Below, piece after piece: positions 3,174-40,651 of a stretch of 40,921 bases of DNA (positions are counted from its first letter, which is position 1; each line of letters opens with the position of its first letter). A program made the position numbers and the translations under genes. The notes below the pieces were generated by a model. That model saw nothing but the letters and a program-made list of their open reading frames with translations. It did no database searches and was not told where the DNA came from. Origin of the DNA: Gammaproteobacteria bacterium (lineage in GTDB: Bacteria; Pseudomonadota; Gammaproteobacteria; Ga0077536). The DNA lies in the NCBI GenBank assembly GCA_016209015.1, contig JACQWY010000011.1, positions 1-40,921 of the forward strand, in the 5' to 3' direction.

Positions 3174-4343
3174 TCACCCGCTGCCGCGGCCGGCGCCCGG
3201 CAGATCCGCCTCCGCCGCGAGCGCCCTGCTGATGATCATCCTCTGCATGTCGTTCGTGCCTTCGTAGATCTGGCAGACGCGCTGATCGCGGTAGAGCCGC
3301 GCGACATCGTAGTCCTCGAGATAACCGTAGCCGCCGTGGATCTGGATGGCGTCCGTGCAGACCCGCTCCGCCATGGTCGTCGCGAAGAGCTTCGCCATGG
3401 ACGCTTCGCGCGCGCAGCACTCGCCGCGCTCGACCATGCGGGCGACGCGATGGACGTAGCTGCGGGCGATCTCGATCGCCGTGTCCATGTCGGCGAGACG
3501 GAACGCGAGCGCCTGGTGCGCGGCGATCTTCTGGCCGAAGGCTTCGCGTTCGAACGCGTACTTGCGCGCCGCCTCGAACGCGGCACGCGCGAAGCCGACC
3601 GCCTGCGCGGCCACGGAGACGCGCCCGTCGGAGAGCATGGAGAGCGTCAGCGCGTAGCCGCCGTCGACGGTGCCGAGCACGTTCGCGGCCGGCACGCGGC
3701 ACTCCTCGAAGAAGACCTGGGCCGTGTCGGAGACGCGTTGCCCGAGCTTGTCCTCGGCGGGACCGACGCGCAGGCCGGGGGTGTCGTTCGGGACGATGAA
3801 AATGGTGAGGCCCTTCGCGCGATGCGCCGGTTCCGTCACCGCGACCACGAGGAAGACGCCGGCGATGCGGGCGTTCGTGATGAACTGCTTCGCGCCGTTC
3901 AGCACGTAGTGATCCCCGTCGCGCACGGCGCGGGTGCGGAGATTCGAAGCGTCCGAGCCCGCCTGCGGCTCGGTGAGGCAGAACGCCCCGATGCACTCGC
4001 CGCCCGCCATGCGCGGCAGCCACGCCGATTTCTGCGCGGGCGTGCCATGGCGTTCGAGGACGAGGCCAGCGCCGAGGTTGTGGACGTGCACGGTCGTCGA
4101 GATGCCGCCGCCGCAGGCCGCGATCTCCTCGACCGCGAGGATGAAGGCCGTGAACGAGGCGCCGCTGCCGCCCCACTCCGGCGCCATCATCATGCCGAAA
4201 ATCCCGGCCGCGCCCATTTCGTCGAGCACGGGACGGGGAATCGCGCCCGCCTTCTCCCAGGCGCGCAGCCCCGGCGCGAGCACGCGGCGGGCGAAAGCGG
4301 CGGTGGCGTCGCGTACGTTGATTTCGTCTGCGCTGAAAGTCAT
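3174..4343 (-). CDS. Acyl-CoA dehydrogenase
   Basis: A 389-residue flavoenzyme of normal family length that would oxidise an acyl-CoA to the 2,3-enoyl-CoA, passing electrons to ETF. Visible signatures are FCLTEPQAGSDASNL (flavin and substrate region), QIHGGYGYLEDYDVARLYRD and, near the C-terminus, IYEGTNDMQR, whose glutamate is the usual catalytic base. The ATG has a GGAG about nine bases upstream. It is transcribed divergently from the family III CoA-transferase at 4457, with 113 bases between them, so both may share a control region: the transferase would activate an acid and the dehydrogenase desaturate the thioester. The chain length of the substrate cannot be read from the sequence. It is distinct from the second dehydrogenase at 12751-13926. 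Confidence 0.94.
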   Translation of the reverse strand: MTFSADEINVRDATAAFARRVLAPGLRAWEKAGAIPRPVLDEMGAAGIFGMMMAPEWGGSGASFTAFILAVEEIAACGGGISTTVHVHNLGAGLVLERHGTPAQKSAWLPRMAGGECIGAFCLTEPQAGSDASNLRTRAVRDGDHYVLNGAKQFITNARIAGVFLVVAVTEPAHRAKGLTIFIVPNDTPGLRVGPAEDKLGQRVSDTAQVFFEECRVPAANVLGTVDGGYALTLSMLSDGRVSVAAQAVGFARAAFEAARKYAFEREAFGQKIAAHQALAFRLADMDTAIEIARSYVHRVARMVERGECCAREASMAKLFATTMAERVCTDAIQIHGGYGYLEDYDVARLYRDQRVCQIYEGTNDMQRMIISRALAAEADLPGAGRGSG

Positions 4344-4456
4344 AGTCGGTCTCCACGACGTGCGATGGCCGGAGAGGTCGATTCTTGGAGCGGTCGCGCG
4401 TGATCGTCAATCCACCGCTGCCGCATCTGCATCTCTGAAACCAGGAGCATTGACCC

Positions 4457-5539
4457 ATGTCAGGCCCGCTCGCCGGACTCACCGTGCTGTCGCTCGCCGA
4501 GCAGTATCCCGGTCCCTATTGCACGCTGCTGCTCGCGGATCTCGGCGCGGACGTGATCCTCGTCGAGCGACCGGGCGGCGGCGATCCGGCGCGCGCGTTC
4601 CCGGATTTCTTCGCGGCGATCTCGCGCAACAAGCGCAGCGTCTGTCTCGATCTGAAGAACGCCGCGGATCGTGAGGCGCTGCTCGATCTCGCGGCACGCG
4701 CCGACGTGCTGCTCGAGGGCTATCGCCCGGGCACGATGGCGCGGCTCGGGCTCGGCTGGGAGACGTTCGAGACACGCAACCCGCGGCTCGTCTACGTCTC
4801 GATCTCGGGCTTCGGTCAGGACGGGCCGTATCGCGACCGGCCGGCGCATGACATCTCCTACCAGGCGGTGACGGGCTTGCTGTTCGCGCAGAGCACGACG
4901 CCGGGCGCGGTGCCGGACGTCGCGCTCGGCGATCTGTGCGGCGCGATGTTCGCGACCGTCGGCGTGCTCGCCGCGCTGCAGGGCCGAAGCGCGACCGGCC
5001 GCGGCACCTACGTCGACGTCTCGATGACGGACGGTCTCGTGTCGTGGATGAGCGCGCTGCTCGGGCCGGTGCTGAACGGCGGCGCGCGCTTCGACGGCAC
5101 GGACGAGCCCGCGTACGGCGCGTTCCAGACCGCCGACGGCCGGGTGCTCACGATCAGCATCGCGCACGAGGATCACTTCTGGCGGGCGCTCTGCGCGCTG
5201 CTCGCGCTCGATGCCGCCGGCATGGCGCACGACGAGCGCGTGCGCCGGCGCGTCGAGCTCCGCGCCGGCATAGCGGCCCGGCTCGCCCGCGAGACGCTCG
5301 CGCACTGGGCGGCGCGCTTCGACGGCGCGGGCATTCCGTGGGGGCCGGTGCACGACCTCGCGGGCGTGACGCGCGATCCCCACTTCATCGCCCGGCGCAT
5401 GTTCGCCGCGATCGCGAGGCGCGACGGCAGCACGGAGCATCACGTCGTGCAGCCGCTGAAGTTCTCCGCCTACGACGCCGCGATCACGCGCCCCACGCCC
5501 GCGCTCGGCGAGCACACCGACGAGGTGCTCGGACGCTGA
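4457..5539 (+). CDS. CaiB/BaiF family III CoA-transferase
   Basis: A 360-residue family III CoA-transferase that would move CoA between a donor thioester and a free carboxylic acid. It begins with the typical GPLAGLTVLSLAEQYPGPYC and LADLGADVILVERPGGGDPA segments. The motif ALGDLCGAMFA carries Asp159, aligned by context with the catalytic aspartate that forms the acyl-anhydride intermediate in this family. The start has AGGAG about nine bases upstream. It diverges from an acyl-CoA dehydrogenase and is followed, after 262 bases, by nifJ. The acid and the donor are unknown. A second, different family member lies at 11577-12746, also paired with an acyl-CoA dehydrogenase. Confidence 0.93.
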   Translation: MSGPLAGLTVLSLAEQYPGPYCTLLLADLGADVILVERPGGGDPARAFPDFFAAISRNKRSVCLDLKNAADREALLDLAARADVLLEGYRPGTMARLGLGWETFETRNPRLVYVSISGFGQDGPYRDRPAHDISYQAVTGLLFAQSTTPGAVPDVALGDLCGAMFATVGVLAALQGRSATGRGTYVDVSMTDGLVSWMSALLGPVLNGGARFDGTDEPAYGAFQTADGRVLTISIAHEDHFWRALCALLALDAAGMAHDERVRRRVELRAGIAARLARETLAHWAARFDGAGIPWGPVHDLAGVTRDPHFIARRMFAAIARRDGSTEHHVVQPLKFSAYDAAITRPTPALGEHTDEVLGR

Positions 5540-5801
5540 GCGCGCGCCTCGCATTCCCCGACGGAGGCCGCCGAGCCCCGCGCGAAATCCGCCGCGAACC
5601 CGCGCTCGATCAAGAAACCGCGACGCGAACTTTCCATACTGACGGCAAGCTCAATCCGATCCCCCCCGGGCCGCTACAACCGGACGTGCGCCCGGCCCCG
5701 TAACGCGGCTCGATCGGAGACGGGCGACACGGCGACGCCGGCCCAGGGCAGGTCCGGACCACCCGACAGCCACCGCCCGGTGCGGGCGGGAGAAGGAACA
5801 C

Positions 5802-9381
<3,580 letters not shown>

Positions 9382-9389
<8 letters not shown>

Positions 9390-10392
9390 ACTGAATACCA
9401 CCTGGCTCGGGCTCGCGCTGCGCACGCCTTTCGTCGTCGCGGCGTGTCCGGTCTCGGACGACGTCGACCATCTCGCGCGCTACGTGGAGGCCGGCGCGAG
9501 CGCGGTGGTCATGCGCTCGCTGTTCGAGGAGCAGATCATCGCCGAACAGATGGCGGCGCATCACCTCATCGACGGGCGGACCGACATGGACGCGGAATCG
9601 CGCAGCTTCATGCCCGAGAGCGGCACCGTGACGCTCGGCCACGAGCACTACATCCGGCACCTCGAGCGGATCCGGGCACGCACGGGCGTGCCGGTGATCG
9701 CCTCGCTGAACGGCGTGACGCCGGGCGGCTGGACGGAGATGGCGCGGGATCTCGAGGCGGCCGGCGCGGCGGCGATCGAGCTGAACCTCTACGAGGTCGC
9801 GACGGACCCGCAGGAGAGCGGCAGCGAAGTCGAAACGCGCCAGATCGAGACCGTGCGTTCCGTCGTCGGCGCGGTGAGCGTGCCGGTGGCCGTGAAGCTC
9901 TCGCCGTTCTACGCGTCCGTGCCGGCGTTCTGCCGGCAGCTCGCCGGCGCCGGCGCGAAGGGCGCGGTCGTATTCAACCGCTTCTACCAGCCGGACGTGC
10001 AGCTCGAGACGCTGGACCTCGACACGAACCTGCATCTCTCCACGTCGGCCGAGCTGCCGCTGCGTCTGCATGCGCTCGCGCTGCTGCATGGACGCGTGGC
10101 ACTCGATCTCTCCGCGGCAGGCGGCGTGCACACGGCGGAGGACGCGGCGAAGGCGATCGTCTGCGGCGCGAACATCGTGCAAATGGCGTCCGCCCTGCTC
10201 GAGAACGGGCCGGAATATCTGGCGGCGACCGTGGCGGCGTTCGCCGGCTGGCTCGCGGAGCAGGGCTATCGCGACGTCGCCGAAGCGCGGGGTGTGATGT
10301 CGCTCGAGAACGCGCCGAATCCCGGCGCCTGGGAGCGGCTCAATTACATGCGCATGCTCGCCGGCTGGCAGCCGCGCGCGAAACGCCGTTGA
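9382..10392 (+). CDS. Dihydroorotate dehydrogenase-like flavoprotein, NifJ-linked
   Basis: A 336-residue TIM-barrel flavoprotein of the dihydroorotate dehydrogenase superfamily. It starts SELNTTWLGLALRTPFVVAA, has VPVAVKLSPFY in mid-barrel and the FMN-phosphate-type end ANIVQMASALLENG. The ATG at 9382 lies inside the 3' end of nifJ (8-base overlap), and an in-frame ATG further upstream lies within nifJ. This family is often encoded beside nifJ and is usually annotated as dihydroorotate dehydrogenase-like. It lacks an obvious pyrimidine-pathway neighbour here, so a role in electron transfer with the oxidoreductase is more likely than uridine synthesis. That role is inference from position. Confidence 0.9.
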
Positions 10393-10438
10393 TGACCGGG
10401 CGCGGGGAACGGGGACGCAGGCCGTCGTTCCGCCCGCT

Positions 10439-10897
10439 TCACTCCGGCGGCGGAGCCGGCGGCATTTCGTAATCCGTGCTCGAGAAGTCGTAGGCCTCGA
10501 TCGCGTCCGGCCCGAACAGGCAGGCCTCGCGGCTCGGCGGCCGCGGCAGATCGCGGCTGGGCGTGACGACGTCGTAGGCGCGGATGATCTCCGGATCGGT
10601 GATGTCGCGATTGCGTTCCAGGCATTCCGCCACGCGCTCGGCGAGTGCCGGCCAGGACCCGACGGCGACGTGCTCGTGTTCCCGCCAGCCGGTGTTGCGC
10701 GCGACCACCCACGCCCCCCAGAAGCTCACCGCGACCACGAGCTTGAGATAACGCTGCGCGACGTGGTCGTCGAGCTGCGCGCAGACCTGCGGGAGACCCA
10801 GTCCGATGAGGTCGTGACGACCGAGCCGATGCAGGCCCGCGTCGCGCCGGAGCAGCGCGGCGAGATGCATGCGTTGAAAATCGAAATCCAGTTCCAT
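10439..10897 (-). CDS. Hypothetical protein
   Basis: A 152-residue protein I do not recognise. It has an acidic, aromatic start (MELDFDFQRMHLAALL), one short hydrophobic segment (KLVVAVSFWGAWVVA) that could be buried or membrane-associated, and a proline-rich end (YEMPPAPPPE). No catalytic motif or metal-binding pattern is visible. It is convergent with the DHOD-like gene, whose stop is 46 bases away. There is no strong ribosome binding site. Its frame shows amino-acid composition typical of a real protein, while the overlapping frames are arginine-rich shadows. Function unknown. Confidence 0.6.
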   Translation of the reverse strand: MELDFDFQRMHLAALLRRDAGLHRLGRHDLIGLGLPQVCAQLDDHVAQRYLKLVVAVSFWGAWVVARNTGWREHEHVAVGSWPALAERVAECLERNRDITDPEIIRAYDVVTPSRDLPRPPSREACLFGPDAIEAYDFSSTDYEMPPAPPPE

Positions 10898-10992
10898 GAA
10901 TGCCGGGATAGTGTCGCCGTTCCAGTCATCGGCATGACGCTGCGAAACTTGGGCGGCGCGCCGCGTACCCGATCACACGCCGGAACGGCCGC

Positions 10993-24776: not shown

Positions 24777-25161
24777 ACCGTCATTCACTGCGAATCACGG
24801 TTTCTCGGTTTGAGCTGTTGCTTGGCGTCGAGCACTCCTCGGGCCGTACCGGATCGCGCATAAGCCGTAGCGCTTCGACGAATGCGCGGTGCCTGAAAAA
24901 AGGTTCAGGGTGACCTCCTGCCTTCCCCCGAGTCGGAATGCGCGGGTGCGGAGCGTCCGTCAGAGGCGAGGCTGCGGAGGACGGAGCCTCCACCGTCGGG
25001 CGCTCGGCCGGCGCATTTCGAGTCTCTCGTCGCTGCGCACCGCCGGCGTGTAACGTTCTCGGTCTGTACGCGACTAATGGGCGTAGATCTTCTTGACGAT
25101 CCGCTGCGCGCTGGCGAGCCCTCGCTCTATCGACGGTGCGCCACGAGGAGCAATTCGACCC

Positions 25162-32790: not shown

Positions 32791-33417
32791 TCATCTGCCG
32801 TCGAGCCAGCCTTTCGGAACCGCGGGTAGATCGTTCGGCTCGTCGATGTCGCGCAGCGCCGGCAGCCGGCAGGTCGTCCAACCCAGCGCGTCCAGCCGTG
32901 CCGACGTCGCTGCAGCCACGGTGGCGGTTCCCCACGAAACACCGCGAAAAAGGCTCGCGTGATAGCGATTCAGCCCGAGCAGGACGTAGCCGCCGTCGAG
33001 GCTCGGAACCAACACCGCGTCGTTGGCCTCGAGAGCGGCTGCAGCCGCACAGAGGACGCTGCTGCCCAGACCCGGGCAGTCGGTGCCGATCAGCAGCGTT
33101 GCGCGATTTGCATACGTGATACGCCTGGCGACACGCGCGAGCCGCGCACCGAGATCGCCGCCGCCTTGCCCACTCACCATGACGGACGGTGCCCGGATAA
33201 TCCCGAGCAGCGTCGACCAGTCGAATGCGGCGGGATCCGGCGTGACGCACAGTTCGACGCTGCCTACTTCGGCGGCCACGGCCGCGCGCAGCGTGGCGTC
33301 CAGCATGCGTCGCGCGAGTCGGGCCGCGCCCGCGCTTCCCAGGGCCGGGATCAATCGCGTCTTGGCAAAGCCCGCGACCGGTGCTTTCGCGAATATCACG
33401 ATGGTCAATTGCTTCAT
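32791..33417 (-). CDS. TIGR04282-type arsenosugar biosynthesis glycosyltransferase
   Basis: A 208-residue protein of the DUF2064/TIGR04282 group, a GT-A-like nucleotidyl/glycosyl transferase fold. Signature segments are IFAKAPVAGFAKTRLIPALG at the N-terminus, LLIGTDCPGLGSSVL and VLVPSLDGGYVLLGLN. Members are habitually found beside arsS and the TIGR04283 glycosyltransferase and are named for arsenosugar synthesis on that basis; the exact sugar transfer has not been defined. It is the only gene of the arsenosugar locus on the minus strand and diverges from the main operon with a 331-base control region between. The ribosome binding site is weak. Confidence 0.88.
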   Translation of the reverse strand: MKQLTIVIFAKAPVAGFAKTRLIPALGSAGAARLARRMLDATLRAAVAAEVGSVELCVTPDPAAFDWSTLLGIIRAPSVMVSGQGGGDLGARLARVARRITYANRATLLIGTDCPGLGSSVLCAAAAALEANDAVLVPSLDGGYVLLGLNRYHASLFRGVSWGTATVAAATSARLDALGWTTCRLPALRDIDEPNDLPAVPKGWLDGR

Positions 33418-33748
33418 GTGTCCCGTCGCCTGAGCGTCGAACCGGCACTCACGATACTGCCATAGTCCGACTCCGGGCGGACGTGACTGCCGGATTCGTC
33501 GGCGATCTCGCGACGGTGCTTACACATCGTGCGCCTCAGTGTAAGAATTCCAAGCGCATCGCCGACCAAGCAGGCGGACCATCAATCATAGCGAGGCAAG
33601 TGCCGCGAGCCCGGCGGGCGTTTCGAGCTCAAACCGCACCCGAAAAAATGCGAGCAACTTCCGTCACCTCCCCGAGCCTCGTCGCGATCGTCCCGCGAGC
33701 TTGCAGGCGTCCGGCCGTCCGACGCGCCCGTGCAGCCGGAATCGCGCC
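33418..33748. promoter_or_regulatory. Divergent control region of the arsenosugar locus
   Basis: This 331-base gap must carry promoters for both the minus-strand glycosyltransferase and the seven-gene plus-strand operon. It contains the CTTACAC/GTGTAAG dyad and an AT-richer patch at 33576-33645 (atcaatcatagcg, cgaaaaaatgcg). I see no clear sigma-70 -35/-10 pair, which would be expected if the operon's own sigma factor is used. Confidence 0.6.
33519..33545. promoter_or_regulatory. Dyad operator candidate CTTACAC-N13-GTGTAAG
   Basis: Perfect 7-base inverted arms at 33519-33525 and 33539-33545, about 20 bases centre to centre (two helical turns), lie between the divergent arsenosugar genes. This is the geometry of a homodimeric repressor site. 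No ArsR-type gene is in the window. Alternatively, each arm could be part of an ECF-type promoter element. Confidence 0.5.
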
Positions 33749-34870
33749 ATGACGTCGAAGCGTCTCGTGCTGATCGGCGGTGGTCACGCGCACCTGGGGG
33801 TGCTCGACACGCTCGCGCGCACGCGGCCGGCCGGTCCGGAAGTCGTGATCGTGAGCCCGGGCCGCTGGCAATATTACTCCGGCATGCTGCCCGGCTGGAT
33901 GATGGGCCAGTACGACCTGCGCGCATGCCGCATCGACCTCGACGCAGTGACCGCACGCGCCGGCGTGCGTCTCGTCGACGACACCGCGGTGGCGTTGGAC
34001 GCCGCCAGGCGCCGCGTCATGCTGGGCAGCGGCGCGGAAGTCGACTACGACGTCCTGTCGCTCGATGTCGGGAGTGAAACGGATGTCAGCGCGCTGGCGG
34101 GGGCAGGTGCCCAACTCCTGCCGGTGAAGCCCCTCGGGGAATTCACGCAGCGTTGGCGATCACTTGGCGCGCCGGCACGGGGCGCGGAACTCGCGCGGCT
34201 CGTCGTGGTGGGCGGTGGAGCAGGCGGCGTCGAGATGGCGATTGCCGCGGCCTGCGTGTTCTCCGCGACGCATGCGTCGACGCGCGTCACGCTCGTGGCC
34301 GGTGCAGAGGGCGTTCTTCCCGACCATTCGGCGCCGGTGCGCCGAATGGCGCTGCGGGCGCTGAGCCGTGCGGCGATCGAAGTCCTCGCCCGACGGGCGG
34401 TCGGTACGCAGGGGGGGCTCGTGCTCGACTCCGGCAAGTTCATTCCGGCAGAGATCGTGATCGCTGCGTCCGGGGCGCGCGCCGCGGGCTGGCTGCGATC
34501 CTCGGGGCTCGAATTGGACGAAGGTGGTTTCGTGGCCGTGAATGCATTTCATCAAAGCCTTTCCCATCCGGAGGTATTCGCGGCCGGTGACGTCTGCACT
34601 CGCGCCGATCGCTCCGTGAGCCGTTCAGGGGTACACGCCGTCAAGACCGGCCCGGTGCTCGCGCACAACGTGCTCGCCGCACTGCGTGGTGGCGAGTTGC
34701 AGCCCTACACGCCTCGTCCATGGTCGCTCTATCTCCTGGTCAGCGGACCACGGAGCGCGATTGCCTCCTGGGGGCCGTGGGCCGTGGAAGGCGCGTGGGT
34801 GCGACGCTGGAAACATCGCATCGACAGCCGCTTCGTGGAGCGCTTCAGGGCAGGGGCGCATCGCTTGTGA
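33749..34870 (+). CDS. FAD-dependent pyridine nucleotide-disulfide-type oxidoreductase, SelD-N-terminal-like
   Basis: A 373-residue flavoprotein. It starts MTSKRLVLIGGGHAHLGVLD, with SPGRWQYYSGMLPGWMMGQY soon after, which is the pattern of the TIGR03169 group (the domain that is fused to the N-terminus of selenophosphate synthetase in some bacteria). A second nucleotide-binding glycine motif (VVVGGGAGGVEMAIA) follows at about residue 150, and FAAGDVCTRADRS is the FAD-contacting end motif. There is no CxxxxC redox disulfide, so it is more like NDH-2-type reductases. It is the first gene of the arsenosugar operon, and its stop overlaps the sigma factor start. A reductive role toward arsenicals or quinones is possible but unproven. 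Confidence 0.88.
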   Translation: MTSKRLVLIGGGHAHLGVLDTLARTRPAGPEVVIVSPGRWQYYSGMLPGWMMGQYDLRACRIDLDAVTARAGVRLVDDTAVALDAARRRVMLGSGAEVDYDVLSLDVGSETDVSALAGAGAQLLPVKPLGEFTQRWRSLGAPARGAELARLVVVGGGAGGVEMAIAAACVFSATHASTRVTLVAGAEGVLPDHSAPVRRMALRALSRAAIEVLARRAVGTQGGLVLDSGKFIPAEIVIAASGARAAGWLRSSGLELDEGGFVAVNAFHQSLSHPEVFAAGDVCTRADRSVSRSGVHAVKTGPVLAHNVLAALRGGELQPYTPRPWSLYLLVSGPRSAIASWGPWAVEGAWVRRWKHRIDSRFVERFRAGAHRL

Positions 34871-35475
34871 ACACCGCCGCGCCTGCCGCCGACCCGAACG
34901 ACCTGACCGATCCGGCGTTTCTCGAAACTCTGCGGCGCCAGATGCTCAAGTTCGCGATTCTGCAACTCGGCGATGCGCATATCGCCGAGGACGCCGTCCA
35001 GGAAGCGCTGATCGGCGCGCTCAAGAACGCCGGGTCCTTCAGGCGTGGCGCGGCCCTCAAGACGTGGGTGTTCGCCATCCTGAAGAACAAGATCGCCGAT
35101 GTCCTCCGTCAGCGGCAGCGGATGAATCTCGCGAACCCGGCCCCCGCCACGGAGGACGACGGTGATGAGTGGGGCGAGTCGTTCGACCGCAAGGGGTATT
35201 GGCAGCCTGCCGAGCGTCCGCTGGCCTGGGCGGATCCCGAGGGTGCGCTCGAGAGCGTGCACTTCTGGCGCGTCTTCGAGACTTGCCTCGAGCATCTGCC
35301 GGCATCCCAGGCGCGTGTCTTCATGATGCGCGAAATGATCGAGCTGAATTCGGACGAAGTGTGCGCGGCCGCCGGCATCACGGTCTCCAATCTCCACGTC
35401 ATGCTCTACCGGGCGCGCCTGCGGCTGCGCGAGTGCCTGGAAAACCACTGGTTCAAACCGGGACGAGGCTCATGA
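34867..35475 (+). CDS. Sigma-70 family (ECF-like) RNA polymerase sigma factor
   Basis: A 202-residue two-domain sigma factor. Region 2 runs from about residue 20 to 80 (GDAHIAEDAVQEALIGALKN, then ALKTWVFAILKNKIADVLRQ). An acidic linker follows (EDDGDEWGESFDRKGYW), and region 4 lies near 135-195 (LEHLPASQARVFMMREMIEL, then DEVCAAAGITVSNLHVMLYR). It resembles the TIGR02943 group, which is typically encoded with a small zinc-finger protein. The only upstream start consistent with the neighbour is a GTG at 34867, overlapping the previous stop as GTGA. Its stop overlaps the zinc-finger gene as ATGA. Position inside the arsenosugar operon suggests it drives this locus, perhaps autogenously. Confidence 0.9.
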   Translation: MNTAAPAADPNDLTDPAFLETLRRQMLKFAILQLGDAHIAEDAVQEALIGALKNAGSFRRGAALKTWVFAILKNKIADVLRQRQRMNLANPAPATEDDGDEWGESFDRKGYWQPAERPLAWADPEGALESVHFWRVFETCLEHLPASQARVFMMREMIELNSDEVCAAAGITVSNLHVMLYRARLRLRECLENHWFKPGRGS

Positions 35476-35657
35476 TGAATTGTCGAACCGCCACCCGGCT
35501 GCTCTCCGAGAAGCTGGAGCGTCCGCTCTCTCGCGGCGAGCGCATCGCGCTATGGTTCCATTGCCTGATGTGCGGGGGATGTCGGAACTTCGGCCGGCAC
35601 CTGACGCAGTTGCGTGTGCTGGCGCAACGGTTCGCCCGCAGCGGGGACCGGACGTGA
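35472..35657 (+). CDS. Small zf-HC2-type zinc-finger protein, putative anti-sigma
   Basis: A 61-residue protein starting MMNCRTATRLLSEKLERPLS with the metal motif HCLMCGGC (His30, Cys34, Cys37 as HxxxCxxC). This is the pattern of zinc-binding anti-sigma domains, in which bound zinc holds the sigma factor until oxidation or metal displacement. Here there is no transmembrane helix, so it would act in the cytoplasm. Trivalent arsenic binds such clustered cysteines, so it could sense arsenite directly, which is inference. The start overlaps the sigma stop (ATGA), the usual sigma/anti-sigma coupling. A further Cys4 could take part in metal binding. Confidence 0.82.
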   Translation: MMNCRTATRLLSEKLERPLSRGERIALWFHCLMCGGCRNFGRHLTQLRVLAQRFARSGDRT

Positions 35658-35719
35658 GCGTCGCGACGCCTGACGCGCATCTGCCGCGCTGATCACACGC
35701 GACACGACGAGGCGAGCAC

Positions 35720-36712
35720 ATGCATTCGACCCTGCCCCTGCTGGCGCCGTCCGGGTTCCCGGAACTCCGGCGCGCACGGCTCACGACGCTCCAGGTCAAT
35801 CTCGGCTACCGTTGCAATCAATCCTGCATCCATTGTCACGTCAACGCCGGCCCGACGCGGACCGAGATGATGAGCGCGGAAACTCTGGCGCTCGTGCTCC
35901 AGGTGCTGACCCATTGCGAGCTCGGCACGCTCGATCTCACCGGCGGCGCACCTGAATTGCATCCCGGCTTTCGCGAGCTCGTGGCCGCTGCCCGTGCGCT
36001 CGGCGTTCGCGTCATCGATCGCTGCAATCTCACGGTATTGCTGGAACCGGGCCAGGAGGAGCTCGCGGAATTCCTCGCCGCACAGGGCGTGGAGATCGTC
36101 GCCTCGCTGCCGTGCTACTCGGTGGACAATGTCGATCGCCAGCGCGGTTCCGGCGTGTTCGAGAAGAGCATCGCGGCGCTGCGCAGGCTGAACGCGCTCG
36201 GCTATGGTCGAAAGGACTCCGGGCTCGTGCTGACGCTCGTCTACAATCCGCAGGGGCCGGTGTTACCGCCGCCGCAGGCACAACTGCAGGCGGAGTACCG
36301 CCGCGAGCTCGGGTCGAAGTTCGGCATCGAGTTCAACGCGCTGTTTGCCCTGACGAACATGCCGATCCAGCGCTTCGGATCGACGTTGATTTCGAAGCGG
36401 CAGTTCGGCAACTACCTCGCGCTCCTGAAAGCGCATCACCAGGACGAGCACATGCAGCATGTGATGTGCCGGCAGCTCGTGAGCGTGGACTGGCAGGGCC
36501 GACTGTATGACTGCGACTTCAATCAACAGCTCGGGCTGGGTATCGACTCGTGGGCATGCATGACGCAATCTTCGCTGCGGGCCTTACACCTGCGCGATCT
36601 GCTGGACACGAATCCTGCAGGCGCGTCGATACGTGTCGGCGAGCATTGCTACGGCTGCACTGCCGGCAGCGGCTCGAGCTGCGGTGGGGCGCTCGGTGCC
36701 CCAGGATCATGA
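35720..36712 (+). CDS. arsS: Arsenosugar biosynthesis radical SAM protein ArsS
   Basis: A 330-residue radical S-adenosylmethionine enzyme. The [4Fe-4S] motif is Cys32, Cys36 and Cys39 in NLGYRCNQSCIHCHVNAGPT, followed by the glycine-rich SAM stretch LDLTGGAPELHP. Its C-terminal part is cysteine-rich (HVMCRQLVSVDW, YDCDFNQQLGL, HCYGCTAGSGSSCGG), typical of TIGR04167 ArsS. Family knowledge is that ArsS attaches the 5'-deoxyadenosyl group to dimethylated arsenic, making the arsenosugar precursor. A purine site GAGG is upstream. Its stop overlaps the next gene by four bases. ArsM, which supplies the methylated arsenic, is three genes downstream in the same operon. Confidence 0.94.
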   Translation: MHSTLPLLAPSGFPELRRARLTTLQVNLGYRCNQSCIHCHVNAGPTRTEMMSAETLALVLQVLTHCELGTLDLTGGAPELHPGFRELVAAARALGVRVIDRCNLTVLLEPGQEELAEFLAAQGVEIVASLPCYSVDNVDRQRGSGVFEKSIAALRRLNALGYGRKDSGLVLTLVYNPQGPVLPPPQAQLQAEYRRELGSKFGIEFNALFALTNMPIQRFGSTLISKRQFGNYLALLKAHHQDEHMQHVMCRQLVSVDWQGRLYDCDFNQQLGLGIDSWACMTQSSLRALHLRDLLDTNPAGASIRVGEHCYGCTAGSGSSCGGALGAPGS

Positions 36713-38886
36713 AGCGCGGCATTTTCCTCCTCGCCCTGTGCGTGCTGGTTGCGGCGTTCTTCGTCACCGGCCTCGACGAGCGACTCAGTCTGCGCGCACT
36801 GCAGTCCTCGCTGAGCACGCTGACGGCGCTGCACGCGCGCGCGCCGCTGTTCTTCGGGCTCGAATTCGCTGCAATCTATGTCCTGGTGACCGCACTGTCA
36901 TTGCCGGGCGCCGCGCTCCTGACTCTGCTCGCAGGCGCCTTGTTCGGGCTCGCCTGGGGCGCTCTGATCGCGTCTTTCGCCTCGAGCGTGGGTGCCTTGC
37001 TCGCGTTCCTGACTTCGCGTCATCTGTTGCGTGATTTCGTGCGCGCGCGCTTCGCGGCGCGATGCACGCTTGTCGACGCCGGGCTCGCACGTGACGGTGA
37101 TCGCTATCTCTTCAGCCTGCGGCTCGTGCCGGTATTTCCGTTCTTCGCAATCAATCTGCTGATGGGCCTCACGCGCATGCCGGCGCGTCGGTTCTACTGG
37201 ATCAGCCAGCTCGCCATGCTGCCGGCCACGCTCGTCTACGTGAATGCAGGCACGCAGCTCGCGCGACTCCGGAGCCTCTCCGATGTCTTCGCGCCCGGCT
37301 TCCTCACGGCTTCCGTCTTGCTCGCGACTCTGCCGTGGACCTCGAAAGCCGTCGCGGGCTGGTGGCGGCGCCGCACGCTTTATGCGCGTTGGCAGCGGCC
37401 ACGACGGTTCGATCGCAATCTCGTCGTCATCGGCGCTGGTGCCGCAGGGCTCGTCTGCTCCTACGTCGCCGCTGCCGCGCGCGCGAAAGTGACGCTCGTC
37501 GAAGCCCACGAGATGGGCGGGGATTGTCTCAATCGCGGCTGCGTGCCGAGCAAGGCGCTGATCCGGGCGGCGAAGCTCGCCCACGAAGTCAGGGAGGCCG
37601 GGCGCTTCGGTGTCGGAACGCCCGGTGATGGCGTCGTGGTGTCGATGCCCGATGTGATGGCGCATGTGCATGCAGCCGTGCGCAGCATCGCACCGCACGA
37701 CGCCGTCGAGCGCTACACCCTGCTCGGGGTCGACGTTCGCCTAGGCCGCGCGCGCGTCGTCGATCCCTGGACCATCGAGGTCACTGCCCACGACGGAATA
37801 CGCTCGACGCTGACGACGCGCGCGATCGTGCTCGCGACCGGCGCGCGCCCAATCGTACCGGATCTGCCGGGTCTCGAGAGTGCGACGTATGCCACGAGCG
37901 ACACGCTCTGGACGCACCTGTCGGCAGCGGCGACGCTGCCGCGACGGATCGTGATCCTCGGCGGCGGACCGATCGGCAGCGAGCTCGCGCAGGCGTTCGC
38001 ACGTCTCGGTGCAGCAGTGACCCTGGTCGAATCCGGGGTGCGGATCCTCGCGCGCGAAGATGTCGACGTCTCGATGCTGGCCCGCGAGGTCCTGCAGGCA
38101 GAGGGGGTGGAGGTCCTGACGGGGCACACGGCGCTGCGCTGTGAACGCACGAGCGGGGAAGACGACCGTACCGAGCGACTCATCGTCGATCAGGCAGGCA
38201 CCACGCGCGCCCGGCCCTTCGACCTGCTGATCTGTGCGGTCGGGCGCAGTGCGCGGCTCACCGGTTACGGGCTCGAGGCGCTCGGGATACCGACCGGCAA
38301 GGTCATCGAGACGAACGAGTATCTCGAAACACTCTATCCGAACATTTTTGCGGCGGGCGATATCGCCGGACCTTACCAGTTCACGCACTACGCGGCACAT
38401 CAGGCGTGGTATGCAACGGTAAACGCGCTGTTCGGCGGCGTCGGGAGATTCAAGCTCGACAACCGCATCGTGCCCTGGATCACATTCCTCGACCCGGAGG
38501 TCGCGCGCGTCGGGCTGAACGAAGCGGACTGTGTACGCGAGGGCATCCCTCACGAAGTGACGCGCTATGAATTATCGGATCTCGACCGTGCGATCGTCGA
38601 CGGTGGGGCGCGGGGCTTCGTCAAAGTCCTCACGGTGCCGGGCAAGGGCAGGATGCTCGGCGTGACGATTGTCGGAAGCCATGCCGCGGAAATGTTGTCC
38701 GAGTTCGTGCTCGCGATGCGCTGGGGACTCGGGCTCGAGAAAATCCTCTCGACCATTCACGTCTATCCCACGTTCGGCGAAGCCAACAAGCATGCGGCGG
38801 CTACGTGGCGTCGTGCGCACCTGCCCAAGCGGGCGCTCGCCTGGCTCGCGCGCTACAACGCCTGGCGGCGGGGCGCCGAAGCATGA
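36709..38886 (+). CDS. TVP38/TMEM64 membrane domain fused to disulfide oxidoreductase
   Basis: A 725-residue fusion. Residues 1-225 are a TVP38/TMEM64 (SNARE-associated, DedA-like) membrane domain with about five hydrophobic segments and the motif RLVPVFPFFAINLLMGLT. From about 238 onward is a class I pyridine nucleotide-disulfide oxidoreductase: FAD motif VVIGAGAAGLVCSY, active disulfide GGDCLNRGCVPSK (Cys273, Cys278), second nucleotide motif VILGGGPIGSELAQAF, and the dimerisation-domain end HVYPTFGEAN. It is often annotated as mercuric reductase, but the C-terminal vicinal cysteine pair and the N-terminal HMA domain of MerA are absent. The gene overlaps arsS and the next gene by four bases each. 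It may reduce an arsenical intermediate at the membrane; that is inference. Confidence 0.9.
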   Translation: MKRGIFLLALCVLVAAFFVTGLDERLSLRALQSSLSTLTALHARAPLFFGLEFAAIYVLVTALSLPGAALLTLLAGALFGLAWGALIASFASSVGALLAFLTSRHLLRDFVRARFAARCTLVDAGLARDGDRYLFSLRLVPVFPFFAINLLMGLTRMPARRFYWISQLAMLPATLVYVNAGTQLARLRSLSDVFAPGFLTASVLLATLPWTSKAVAGWWRRRTLYARWQRPRRFDRNLVVIGAGAAGLVCSYVAAAARAKVTLVEAHEMGGDCLNRGCVPSKALIRAAKLAHEVREAGRFGVGTPGDGVVVSMPDVMAHVHAAVRSIAPHDAVERYTLLGVDVRLGRARVVDPWTIEVTAHDGIRSTLTTRAIVLATGARPIVPDLPGLESATYATSDTLWTHLSAAATLPRRIVILGGGPIGSELAQAFARLGAAVTLVESGVRILAREDVDVSMLAREVLQAEGVEVLTGHTALRCERTSGEDDRTERLIVDQAGTTRARPFDLLICAVGRSARLTGYGLEALGIPTGKVIETNEYLETLYPNIFAAGDIAGPYQFTHYAAHQAWYATVNALFGGVGRFKLDNRIVPWITFLDPEVARVGLNEADCVREGIPHEVTRYELSDLDRAIVDGGARGFVKVLTVPGKGRMLGVTIVGSHAAEMLSEFVLAMRWGLGLEKILSTIHVYPTFGEANKHAAATWRRAHLPKRALAWLARYNAWRRGAEA

Positions 38887-39557
38887 AGGTATCGATCATC
38901 GTACCGGTGCTGGACGAGGCCGCGACCCTGCCGGAACTGCTCGCGCATCTGTTGCCCTTCGAGCGCCATGGCTGCGAGGTGCTGCTCGTCGACGGCGGTA
39001 GCATCGACGGCAGCGCGGCCCTGGCGGCCGCAGCGGGCTTTCGCGTGCTCGGTGCCGAGCCGGGACGAGCCGGCCAGATGAATGCGGGCGGCCGTGCCGC
39101 GCGCGGCGACGTGTTCGTCTTCCTGCACGCGGATACGCGCCTGCCGGCCGGTGCGTGTGCCGCGATCGGTCTCGGTCTCAGCGGCGGAAACCGCGTGTGG
39201 GGGCGATTCGACGTGACGATAGCGGGCCGCTCGCGAGGGCTCGGCATGGTCGCGTTCTGCATGAATCTGCGCTCTCGATGGACGGGCATCGCGACCGGCG
39301 ATCAGGCCATTTTCGTCACCCGCGACGCCTTCGAGGCGAGTGGCGGCTTTCCCGAGCAGCCGCTGATGGAGGATGTCGAGCTCTCGCGGCGTCTGAAACG
39401 AATCTCGGCGCCGGTGTCCCTGCGGCAGCGTGTGGTGACGTCGGGACGACGCTGGGACTCGGCCGGACTATGGACGACGACACTCCTGATGTGGCGGCTA
39501 CGCTTTGCCTACTGGCTCGGTGCCTCGCCAGAGTGCCTCGCCGCGATCTACAAATGA
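38883..39557 (+). CDS. TIGR04283-type arsenosugar biosynthesis glycosyltransferase
   Basis: A 224-residue family 2 (GT-A) glycosyltransferase: VSIIVPVLDEAATLPELL at the N-terminus, LLVDGGSIDGS, then LHADTRLP providing the DxD-like metal site, GDQAIFVTRDAFEASGGFPE and PLMEDVELSRRL toward the end. This is the TIGR04283 pattern named for arsenosugar biosynthesis from its constant association with arsS. It starts at the ATG overlapping the preceding stop (ATGA) and its own stop overlaps an ATG as well. With the divergent TIGR04282 protein it would complete the sugar side of the pathway, although the sugar donor is unknown. Confidence 0.92.
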   Translation: MKVSIIVPVLDEAATLPELLAHLLPFERHGCEVLLVDGGSIDGSAALAAAAGFRVLGAEPGRAGQMNAGGRAARGDVFVFLHADTRLPAGACAAIGLGLSGGNRVWGRFDVTIAGRSRGLGMVAFCMNLRSRWTGIATGDQAIFVTRDAFEASGGFPEQPLMEDVELSRRLKRISAPVSLRQRVVTSGRRWDSAGLWTTTLLMWRLRFAYWLGASPECLAAIYK

Positions 39558-39613
39558 AAGCGATCGGCAGGCGCGGACTGCTGAACGACGTCATCGATCA
39601 GAGGAGCCGAAAC

Positions 39614-40651
39614 ATGCATGAAGTGATCAAGGACTATTATGGCCGGCAGCTCGGGGGTACCGGAGATCTCAAGACCTCGGCCTGCTGCGATGTCGCGCAA
39701 CAGCCGGCGTGGCTGAAACCGTTGCTGAGCAATGTTCACACTGAGGTGCTCGCGCGCTACTACGGCTGCGGCCTGGTCTGTCCGGCCTTGCTCGAGGGCT
39801 GCCGCGTGCTCGATCTCGGTTGTGGCGCGGGCAGGGATGCCTACGTCCTGTCCCAACTCGTCGGGCCGACGGGCATTGTGATTGGTGTCGACATGACTGA
39901 CGAGCAACTCGCCGTCGCGGAGCGTCATCATGCTTCGCACGCGGAACGTCTCGGTTACGACAATATGCACTTCGTGAAGGGCTACATCGAGCGGCTCGAA
40001 GAGCTCGACCTCGGCGCCGGCAGCTTCGACGTCATCGTCTCGAACTGCGTCGTCAATCTCTCGCCCGACAAGGACGCCGTGCTTGCCGGCGTGCATCGCC
40101 TGCTGCGGCAGGGCGGCGAGTTTTACTTCTCGGACGTCTATGCCGATCGGCGCGTGCCGGCGACGGTACGCAACGATCCGGCGCTGTATAGCGAGTGTCT
40201 GGGCGGCGCGCTCTATTGGAAGGACTTCCTGCGTCTGGCGCGGCGCCACGGTTTCGTCGATCCGCGGCTGGTCGAGGACCACGGCATCGCGATCTCCGAT
40301 TCCGAGCTCGCCGATCGTGTCCGCGGGATGGCGTTCTATTCGGCCACGTATCGGTTGTTCAAGCTCGAGGGGCTGGAGGATGCCTGCGAAGACCATGGCC
40401 AGGCCGTGCGGTATCGCGGCACGATCCCGGGCGCTGCGCAGCGCTTTGAACTCGACAAACATCATGCCATCGATACCGGGAAAGTGTTCCCGGTCTGCGG
40501 TAACACCCTGCGCATGCTGAGCGAAACCCGTTACGCCACGCATTTCGAATGCTTCGGCGATTTCAGTGTGCACTTCGGGCTTTTCGCAGGCTGCGGTGAG
40601 ATTTCCCCTTTCGGATTTGTTACGGCCGCGTCGGGCTCGGCGTGCTGTTGA
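39614..40651 (+). CDS. arsM: Arsenite S-adenosylmethionine methyltransferase ArsM
   Basis: A 345-residue arsenite methyltransferase that would add methyl groups to trivalent arsenic using SAM. The SAM motif VLDLGCGAGRD spans residues 65-75. Arsenic-binding cysteines are recognisable: Cys24/25 in KTSACCD, Cys145 in SNCVVNLSPDK and Cys195 in SECLGGALYW. The 145/195 spacing of 50 residues is that of the Cys174/Cys224 pair known from characterised ArsM. The C-terminal domain ends SGSACC. An ATG at 39554 overlaps the previous stop, but the ATG at 39614 is preferred because GAGGAG lies seven bases upstream and the protein then starts with the family's DYYGRQL. Its products would feed ArsS. Confidence 0.95.
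   Translation: MHEVIKDYYGRQLGGTGDLKTSACCDVAQQPAWLKPLLSNVHTEVLARYYGCGLVCPALLEGCRVLDLGCGAGRDAYVLSQLVGPTGIVIGVDMTDEQLAVAERHHASHAERLGYDNMHFVKGYIERLEELDLGAGSFDVIVSNCVVNLSPDKDAVLAGVHRLLRQGGEFYFSDVYADRRVPATVRNDPALYSECLGGALYWKDFLRLARRHGFVDPRLVEDHGIAISDSELADRVRGMAFYSATYRLFKLEGLEDACEDHGQAVRYRGTIPGAAQRFELDKHHAIDTGKVFPVCGNTLRMLSETRYATHFECFGDFSVHFGLFAGCGEISPFGFVTAASGSACC

Follow-up and report, generated by a model that had tools for sequence, protein, structure and literature searches.

In Haemophilus influenzae, the extracytoplasmic function (ECF) sigma factor RpoE2 is encoded beside HrsE, a 67-residue cytoplasmic zinc-associated anti-sigma (ZAS) protein of the form C/H-X23-26-H-X3-C-X2-C, which co-purifies with RpoE2 and reverses RpoE2 promoter activity. 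Its regulon comprises msrAB, a DMT transporter, mtsZ and a DoxX operon, with HOCl and H2O2 as inducers (PMC7907618; here and below, as given in excerpts of the cited papers). Neisseria meningitidis has sigma-E (NMB2144) and MseR, an autoregulated operon with DoxX/hypothetical genes and msrAB as the target (PMC2893595, PMC3240639). This system is unresponsive to SDS-EDTA, and its authors call its stimuli unexplored (PMC2893595). Our subject is a pair of adjoining genes, for an ECF sigma factor and a 61-residue ZAS protein, at positions 34867-35657 of a 40,921-nucleotide stretch from Gammaproteobacteria bacterium (assembly GCA_016209015.1, contig JACQWY010000011.1, positions 1 to 40,921), the whole of which we call the window. 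The two genes share an operon with arsS and other genes of an arsenosugar cluster, and we think it quite probable that they form a switch of the RpoE2/HrsE and sigma-E/MseR type in charge of those genes.

In ArsR-controlled ars operons, a cysteine-bearing cytoplasmic repressor controls the arsenic genes; there a repressor is released, whereas here it would be a sigma factor. An earlier sequence-only reading of the window had remarked on the lack of an ArsR repressor, and the contig agrees: none of the genome's six matches to HTH_5 (PF01022, the ArsR family) at E <= 0.001 falls on it (contig C61; 0 of 6), all six lying on other contigs. SigR and RsrA form a thiol switch over an actinobacterial disulfide-stress regulon. 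RsrA of Streptomyces coelicolor has the ZAS motif at the same spacing as our protein (via PMC2893595). In Caulobacter crescentus, SigF is an ECF sigma factor freed from the cysteine-dependent anti-sigma NrsF under chromate and cadmium, which likens it to our pair as a release under metal stress; NrsF differs in being a membrane protein whose cysteines are probably periplasmic, its promoter is GTAACC-N16-CGAA and its targets are others (PMC3511200).

The two closest systems we compared by description, not by sequence identity. RpoE2/HrsE is like our locus in having an ECF sigma factor and a small ZAS protein beside each other and in its methionine sulfoxide reductase target, a function also found in three arsS loci; it differs in that its regulon, as described in the excerpt, holds no arsenic genes (PMC7907618). 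MseR has identically numbered ligands (C4, H30, C34 and C37), which PMC2893595 aligns with those of RsrA at the same spacing; the sigma-E consensus predicted sites at our locus, and the sigma-E operon is autoregulated. It differs in its DoxX/hypothetical genes and its msrAB target. Control of msrAB, common to both regulons, does not appear in the window, where no MsrA or MsrB match was found in a search that covered the window and the loci; this is a matter of regulon content, not of sequence definition. In the open-licence literature, we found no report of sigma or anti-sigma control over arsenosugar genes.

The pair and its predicted promoters

The sigma factor passes the models of the RpoE2/sigma-E type (NF009196, 296.3 bits against a cut-off of 287; TIGR02943, 232.2 against 162.2) and has regions 2 and 4 only, with PF04542 and PF08281 over the gathering score. 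Its partner carries the ligand set C4, H30, C34 and C37, that is, C-X25-H-X3-C-X2-C. An AlphaFold2 model from a 41-row alignment folds the 61 residues into three helices (predicted local distance difference test, pLDDT, 92.7), and Foldseek finds its high-scoring Protein Data Bank (PDB) neighbours in the anti-sigma domains of MucA and RsiW, with template-modelling (TM) scores of 0.67-0.72 and weak E values of 2.0-6.5. Searched by profile against the PDB, the anti-sigma matched RsiW alone (E 0.08), and Pfam zf-HC2 scored 15.4, under its gathering score of 22.2. We predict that the protein binds both zinc and the sigma factor. The invariance of the four ligands in our alignment of 41 anti-sigmas (A2) we rejected as evidence because the sequences had been collected with a pattern that demanded C...HxxxCxxC/W. 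A plasmid search with the sigma factor returned 347 records, the best 62% identical.

The pair belongs to a tightly packed plus-strand operon (33749-40651) that runs from a flavoprotein through the sigma factor, the anti-sigma, arsS, a TVP38-flavoreductase fusion and TIGR04283 to an arsM-like gene (Table 1). The translational coupling that had been proposed for the sigma factor and a 61-residue HxxxCxxC protein is there in the letters, as 4-base overlaps of GTGA between flavoprotein and sigma factor and ATGA between sigma factor and anti-sigma. Overlaps of the same length join ArsS to the fusion, the fusion to TIGR04283 and TIGR04283 to ArsM, leaving the step from anti-sigma to arsS, with its gap of 62 bp, as the sole non-overlapping junction of the operon.

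The published consensus of Neisseria sigma-E is GTMAGBWTT, 12-13 bp, CGTCTAAH (PMC2893595). We scored the window with a simplified form of it (maximum 15). The best match in the whole 40.9 kb stands at the head of the operon, at 33541 (+), a predicted promoter of the GTAAG-N16/17-CGTC type at the sigma factor's own operon. A position weight matrix (PWM), from whose training set the window was excluded, places it close to its maximum and makes it the window's only near-perfect site. A second predicted site faces the other way, toward TIGR04282. Across the 5.7-Mb genome GTAAG-N16/17-CGWCNA is matched 13 times, and two of these matches lie inside this one 331-bp intergenic region, one per direction, where about 0.0008 would be expected at that density. 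Two further positions in the window, 25050 (16.9) and 26200 (14.9, within a coding frame), were rejected as regulon members as near chance, because a window can be expected to contain about two scores of at least 15.5 (by a rate that itself includes true sites). The first of them (25050-25077, +) stands just ahead of frames whose translations resemble, by eye, a thioredoxin and a CcdA-type membrane protein.

Looking beyond the window, we took 80 named arsS loci, the best 80 of 591 in a genome scan and hence the most window-like, and set aside L113, where arsS begins at the locus edge. A consensus score of at least 11 of 15 was reached by 33 of the remaining 79 arsS upstreams; for other upstreams the figure was 75 of 2061, and for reverse strands 10 of 79. 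The PWM, built from 28 sites at -115 to -45 and applied leave-one-out, likewise gave 33/79 at a score of 11 or more, against 35/2056 control upstreams, and all 33 fall at -53 to -99. The site keeps this fixed distance ahead of arsS even where the sigma/anti-sigma pair is on another contig.

The site also goes with the anti-sigma. NF052368 is over its cut-off in 25/38 and 20/42 of the genomes holding the 80 loci, and the anti-sigma occurs in the genome for 29/33 site-bearing arsS loci against 16/46 without a site (odds ratio 13.6, p 1.7e-6, kinship ignored). Of 369 sampled genomes of the class, 180 have arsS over cut-off and 56 have the anti-sigma, at 60 places. We took 69 arsS upstreams from the 180 (35 with the anti-sigma over cut-off, 30 lacking it and 4 weakly matched) and dropped the weak matches and 3 duplicates of named loci, for a comparison outside the training set; the site was present in 6/32 with the anti-sigma and 0/30 without. 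The site is thus nearly confined to pair-bearing genomes, yet many pair-bearing genomes are without it. Among genes that lead a unit, it stands before arsS (36/77), TVP38-flavoreductase (9/24), sigma (8/50), TIGR04282 (1/2), msrB (1/2), flavoprotein (1/10), arsM (1/7) and TIGR04283 (1/23), and before none of three flavoreductases alone. L056, from Pseudogulbenkiania subflava, has one site each for flavoprotein and TIGR04282, as in the window.

Neighbourhoods and descent of the pair

A survey of arsS neighbourhoods for this pair had been suggested at the outset. Anti-sigmas over cut-off came from 56 places in genomes chosen for having arsS; two in G386, of the same score and frame as a third and taken as copies, were left out. 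At least 24 of the 54 that remain have arsS, arsM, TIGR04282 or TIGR04283 at a distance of up to about 7.5 kb (a hand count, and a lower bound because several stretches stop at contig ends). In the class survey, at least 17 of 60 anti-sigma places have a listed arsS within 10 kb, again by hand; the 17 include the window itself and three contigs shared with named loci. In a tree of the sigma factors, the pairs linked to arsenosugar genes are spread over at least three subclades, and the window groups with L048, L041, L191, a second copy described below and Microbulbifer pairs (support 81). The 29/59 arsenosugar-linked pairs in that tree are a biased count, which includes loci fetched for arsS (such as L195, L207, L210, L214, L215 and L218); the 24 of 54 above was drawn without such picking of loci.

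Several points weigh against a sigma switch. The reversed control pattern is commoner in the window's own genome than the pattern itself (69 matches against 13), so a regulon cannot be drawn there from the pattern by itself. The site at 33541 lies 208 bp ahead of the first start codon, farther than the arsS sites in relatives, and the minus-strand site is of moderate score, with similar scores at 25050 and 26200. The site before arsS is missing in 16/45 anti-sigma genomes and in 26/32 of the class sample, while site-bearing L044, L055, L103 and L106 are without an over-cut-off anti-sigma in genomes that may be incomplete (that of L106 has a match just under the cut-off). Sigma genes seldom lead a unit with a site, as the 8 of 50 above attest, and among near relatives, the sigma gene of L191 has no site, with a score of 6.4, and the list of sigma genes that do have one does not include L041's. 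Thirty of the 54 pairs have no arsenosugar gene seen nearby, some stretches stopping at contig ends. The p-values overstate because related genomes are not independent, and the whole case is drawn from sequence. The 30 lone pairs, and the fact that most of the class arsS upstreams examined have no site, would suit a pair that hitchhikes in the cluster, regulating itself or other genes while arsS runs from a housekeeping promoter. We consider this very unlikely: the site holds its distance before arsS even with the pair on another contig, it correlates with the pair, and the only near-perfect site of the window heads the operon.

A sigma switch over the arsenosugar genes, as a conserved regulon, we regard as well supported on sequence evidence, because predicted sites stand at the operon head and before arsS in many genomes, in correlation with the anti-sigma, and because such pairs are repeatedly linked to arsenosugar genes. 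In the resting state, the zinc-finger protein would keep the sigma factor bound. Oxidation of its Cys/His zinc site, or loss of the zinc to a thiol-reactive agent, would free the sigma factor to bind GTAAG-N16/17-CGAC promoters at 33541 (+) and probably 33523 (-). Transcription would then run rightward through the flavoprotein, sigma factor, anti-sigma, arsS, TVP38-flavoreductase, TIGR04283 and arsM, and leftward through TIGR04282; the sigma factor would transcribe both itself and its inhibitor, a positive feedback.

Other company kept by such pairs deserves mention. In L011, L185, L187, L210, L214, L215 and L218, a distant ECF/anti-sigma pair adjoins arsS, with a sigma factor about 29-35% identical to ours; these loci are mostly without a GTAAG site at the usual distance (L011 has one of 11.7 at -94), and they are apparently a separate recruitment with another promoter. 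Some pairs of the sigma/anti-sigma family lie near small HvfA-like metallophore proteins, of the ribosomally synthesized and post-translationally modified peptide (RiPP) kind, in L193 (6436-6813), L144, L159 and L179; the small protein of L193 is below the cut-off of NF050188 and over that of NF050137. These neighbourhoods recall the DoxX/DUF operon that belongs to the sigma-E regulon in Neisseria.

The genome holds a second, collinear copy of the cluster (L136, G000:C53:20000-36000, at 4136-10949), with sigma, anti-sigma, arsS, fusion, TIGR04283, TIGR04282 and arsM genes 53-66% identical to those of the window, save for an anti-sigma remnant at 42%. It is decaying: an insert of about 170 bp, judged by eye, interrupts the anti-sigma, in which Trp stands in place of the last ligand Cys, and the ArsS is without the third radical-SAM Cys. 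The window's ArsS is 57-71% identical to those of the 80 named loci (highest, at 71%, for L041 from Caldimonas manganoxidans) and 47-60% to 26 other over-cut-off ArsS of its own family. In a quick ArsS tree, a group of 82 rows with support 100 takes in the window and the second copy and leaves out the 25 own-family rows included; sampling was uneven, the named rows having been picked for window likeness. No sigma match was found in the 1.5-kb flanks of the own-family ArsS loci, and in one own-family genome (G314) the anti-sigma sits on another contig. The G+C fraction, about 0.70 at first, falls to 0.645 near 20.5 kb, stays at 0.64-0.67 and returns to 0.69 near 42-44 kb, so that the region from 20500 to about 42000 is probably an acquired island that holds the locus. 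Tree, flanks and G+C drop fit a cluster that was transferred as a whole, switch included. The arsS genes of L107 and L080 group with proteobacterial rows, in metagenome-assembled genomes that bear the names Halobacteria archaeon and Bordetella parapertussis, perhaps wrongly.

The enzymes of the locus

Table 1. Genes and predicted sigma sites of the locus in window positions, with msr genes of related arsS loci in locus positions
Feature	Position	Strand	Basis
TIGR04282 glycosyltransferase (DUF2064), divergent from the operon	32791..33417	-	186.5 bits, cut-off 134 (NCBIfam scan)
Predicted sigma site GTAAGCACC-N13-CGACGAA, toward TIGR04282	33495..33523	-	PWM 15.5/24.6; among 13 genome-wide pattern matches
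Predicted sigma site GTAAGAATT-N13-CGACCAA, toward the flavoprotein-sigma-anti-sigma-arsS operon	33541..33569	+	consensus 13/15; PWM 24.3/24.6
Flavin adenine dinucleotide (FAD) pyridine-nucleotide oxidoreductase, TIGR03169 family (flavoprotein)	33749..34870	+	323 bits, cut-off 310
ECF sigma factor, NF009196/TIGR02943, GTG start	34867..35475	+	profile matches; overlaps the flavoprotein stop
61-residue ZAS anti-sigma	35472..35657	+	NF052368, 69.4 bits, cut-off 50
ArsS radical SAM protein (TIGR04167)	35720..36712	+	448 bits, cut-off 300
TVP38/VTT membrane domain fused to flavin disulfide reductase	36709..38886	+	PF09335, PF07992, PF02852
TIGR04283 glycosyltransferase	38883..39557	+	261 bits, cut-off 182
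ArsM-like SAM methyltransferase	39554..40651	+	NF008823, E 1e-50, below cut-off; PF13847
MsrB/MsrA genes in arsS loci	L048 1176-2284; L073 12521-13635; L088 7443-8338		family models checked for L048 only

The genes lie where the sequence-only reading had put them, with corrections. TIGR04282 is on the minus strand and divergent from the operon, and two operon members had been passed over, the TIGR03169 flavoprotein and the TVP38(VTT)-flavoreductase fusion. We do not class the latter as a mercuric reductase (MerA), because TIGR02053 gives 326 bits, under its cut-off of 454. The reading had also listed ArsM, ArsS and both arsenosugar glycosyltransferases. ArsS, TIGR04282 and TIGR04283 jointly exceed their curated cut-offs, as expected of an arsenosugar cluster, while ArsM can be named at family level only. 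It scores 172.7 bits with NF008823 against a cut-off of 263, is below cut-off in all 25 models among the matches listed (32 matched), and reaches 75.4 of the 400 bits required by the curated arsenosugar ArsM model (AsSugarArsM, NF038099). These low scores, with an arsenosugar product that is predicted from genes, leave room for enzymes that do not make arsenosugars and a switch that controls another ArsS-family pathway. We judge this distinctly unlikely, with three of the proteins over curated cut-offs together.

Candidate signals and their meaning

The proposal that a sigma switch, in place of derepression, governs organoarsenical synthesis is supported as far as the switch goes, on the strength of sites, linkage and the anti-sigma correlation. 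The part that made the anti-sigma an arsenite sensor is plausible and no further along. Trivalent arsenic attacks the same thiols as oxidants. The 61-residue protein might use its cysteine cluster to bind As(III), or trivalent arsenic in methylated form, then free the sigma factor and so replace ArsR. The pair is co-operonic with arsS and the arsM-like gene on a contig without an HTH_5 match, pairs of this kind are repeatedly linked to arsenosugar genes, and the window protein has an extra cysteine, C31, which makes three at i, i+3 and i+6 (31, 34 and 37). The ligand set itself is generic to ZAS proteins, however, and occurs in pairs without arsenosugar genes seen nearby (such as L155, L158 and L160); studied relatives answer to HOCl/H2O2 or to signals not established; and three loci bring msrBA, with its oxidative-repair function, into the company of arsS. 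C31 was rejected as an arsenite site: a Cys at that position is found in the window protein alone (1 of 41 aligned; any extra Cys, 10 of 41), and not in its nearest arsS-linked relatives L041, L048 and L191. We find an arsenic sensor of this sort unlikely, if still worth reckoning with.

A serious contender, at somewhat under an even chance, is that the arsenosugar genes belong to an oxidative or reactive-chlorine stress regulon, in which oxidation of the anti-sigma's cysteines would be the signal and arsenic would not be sensed. L048 has MsrB and MsrA between its anti-sigma and arsS, L073 has them next to the sigma factor and L088 behind arsS (msr-bearing loci are 4 of 175 searched, three distinct); with published relatives that control MsrAB, this speaks for a thiol-oxidant signal. 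HOCl induces RpoE2, and our operon includes a flavin disulfide reductase. Against this, the window has no msrA or msrB match, the meningococcal system is, in the excerpt, unresponsive to SDS-EDTA (PMC2893595), and oxidant induction of arsS-linked pairs is argued by analogy.

Returning to the switch over arsenosugar genes, we infer that it would answer to thiol/oxidant stress in general or to stress from soft metals. Arsenite, one of two or three candidate signals, is no likelier than oxidants or general thiol stress; trivalent arsenic may be sensed.

To our knowledge, why and when microbes make arsenosugars is an open question. A matching promoter signal before these genes in many bacteria means that organoarsenical synthesis may follow thiol or oxidative stress, not the usual arsenic repressor. 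We would give an even chance to the wider claim that in Beta- and Gammaproteobacteria, arsenosugar synthesis is an ECF/ZAS stress-switch regulon, recruited in at least three sigma subclades, moved with its genes and set by thiol-redox state (with trivalent arsenic possibly displacing zinc) instead of by ArsR. For a sigma/anti-sigma family whose studied members, as far as the excerpts describe them, control methionine-sulfoxide repair, it would be a new target pathway. A site common to arsS, TVP38-flavoreductase, msrB (in one locus) and some sigma genes makes the question testable in ordinary isolates: whether oxidant or arsenic triggers organoarsenical synthesis, and through which cysteine protein.

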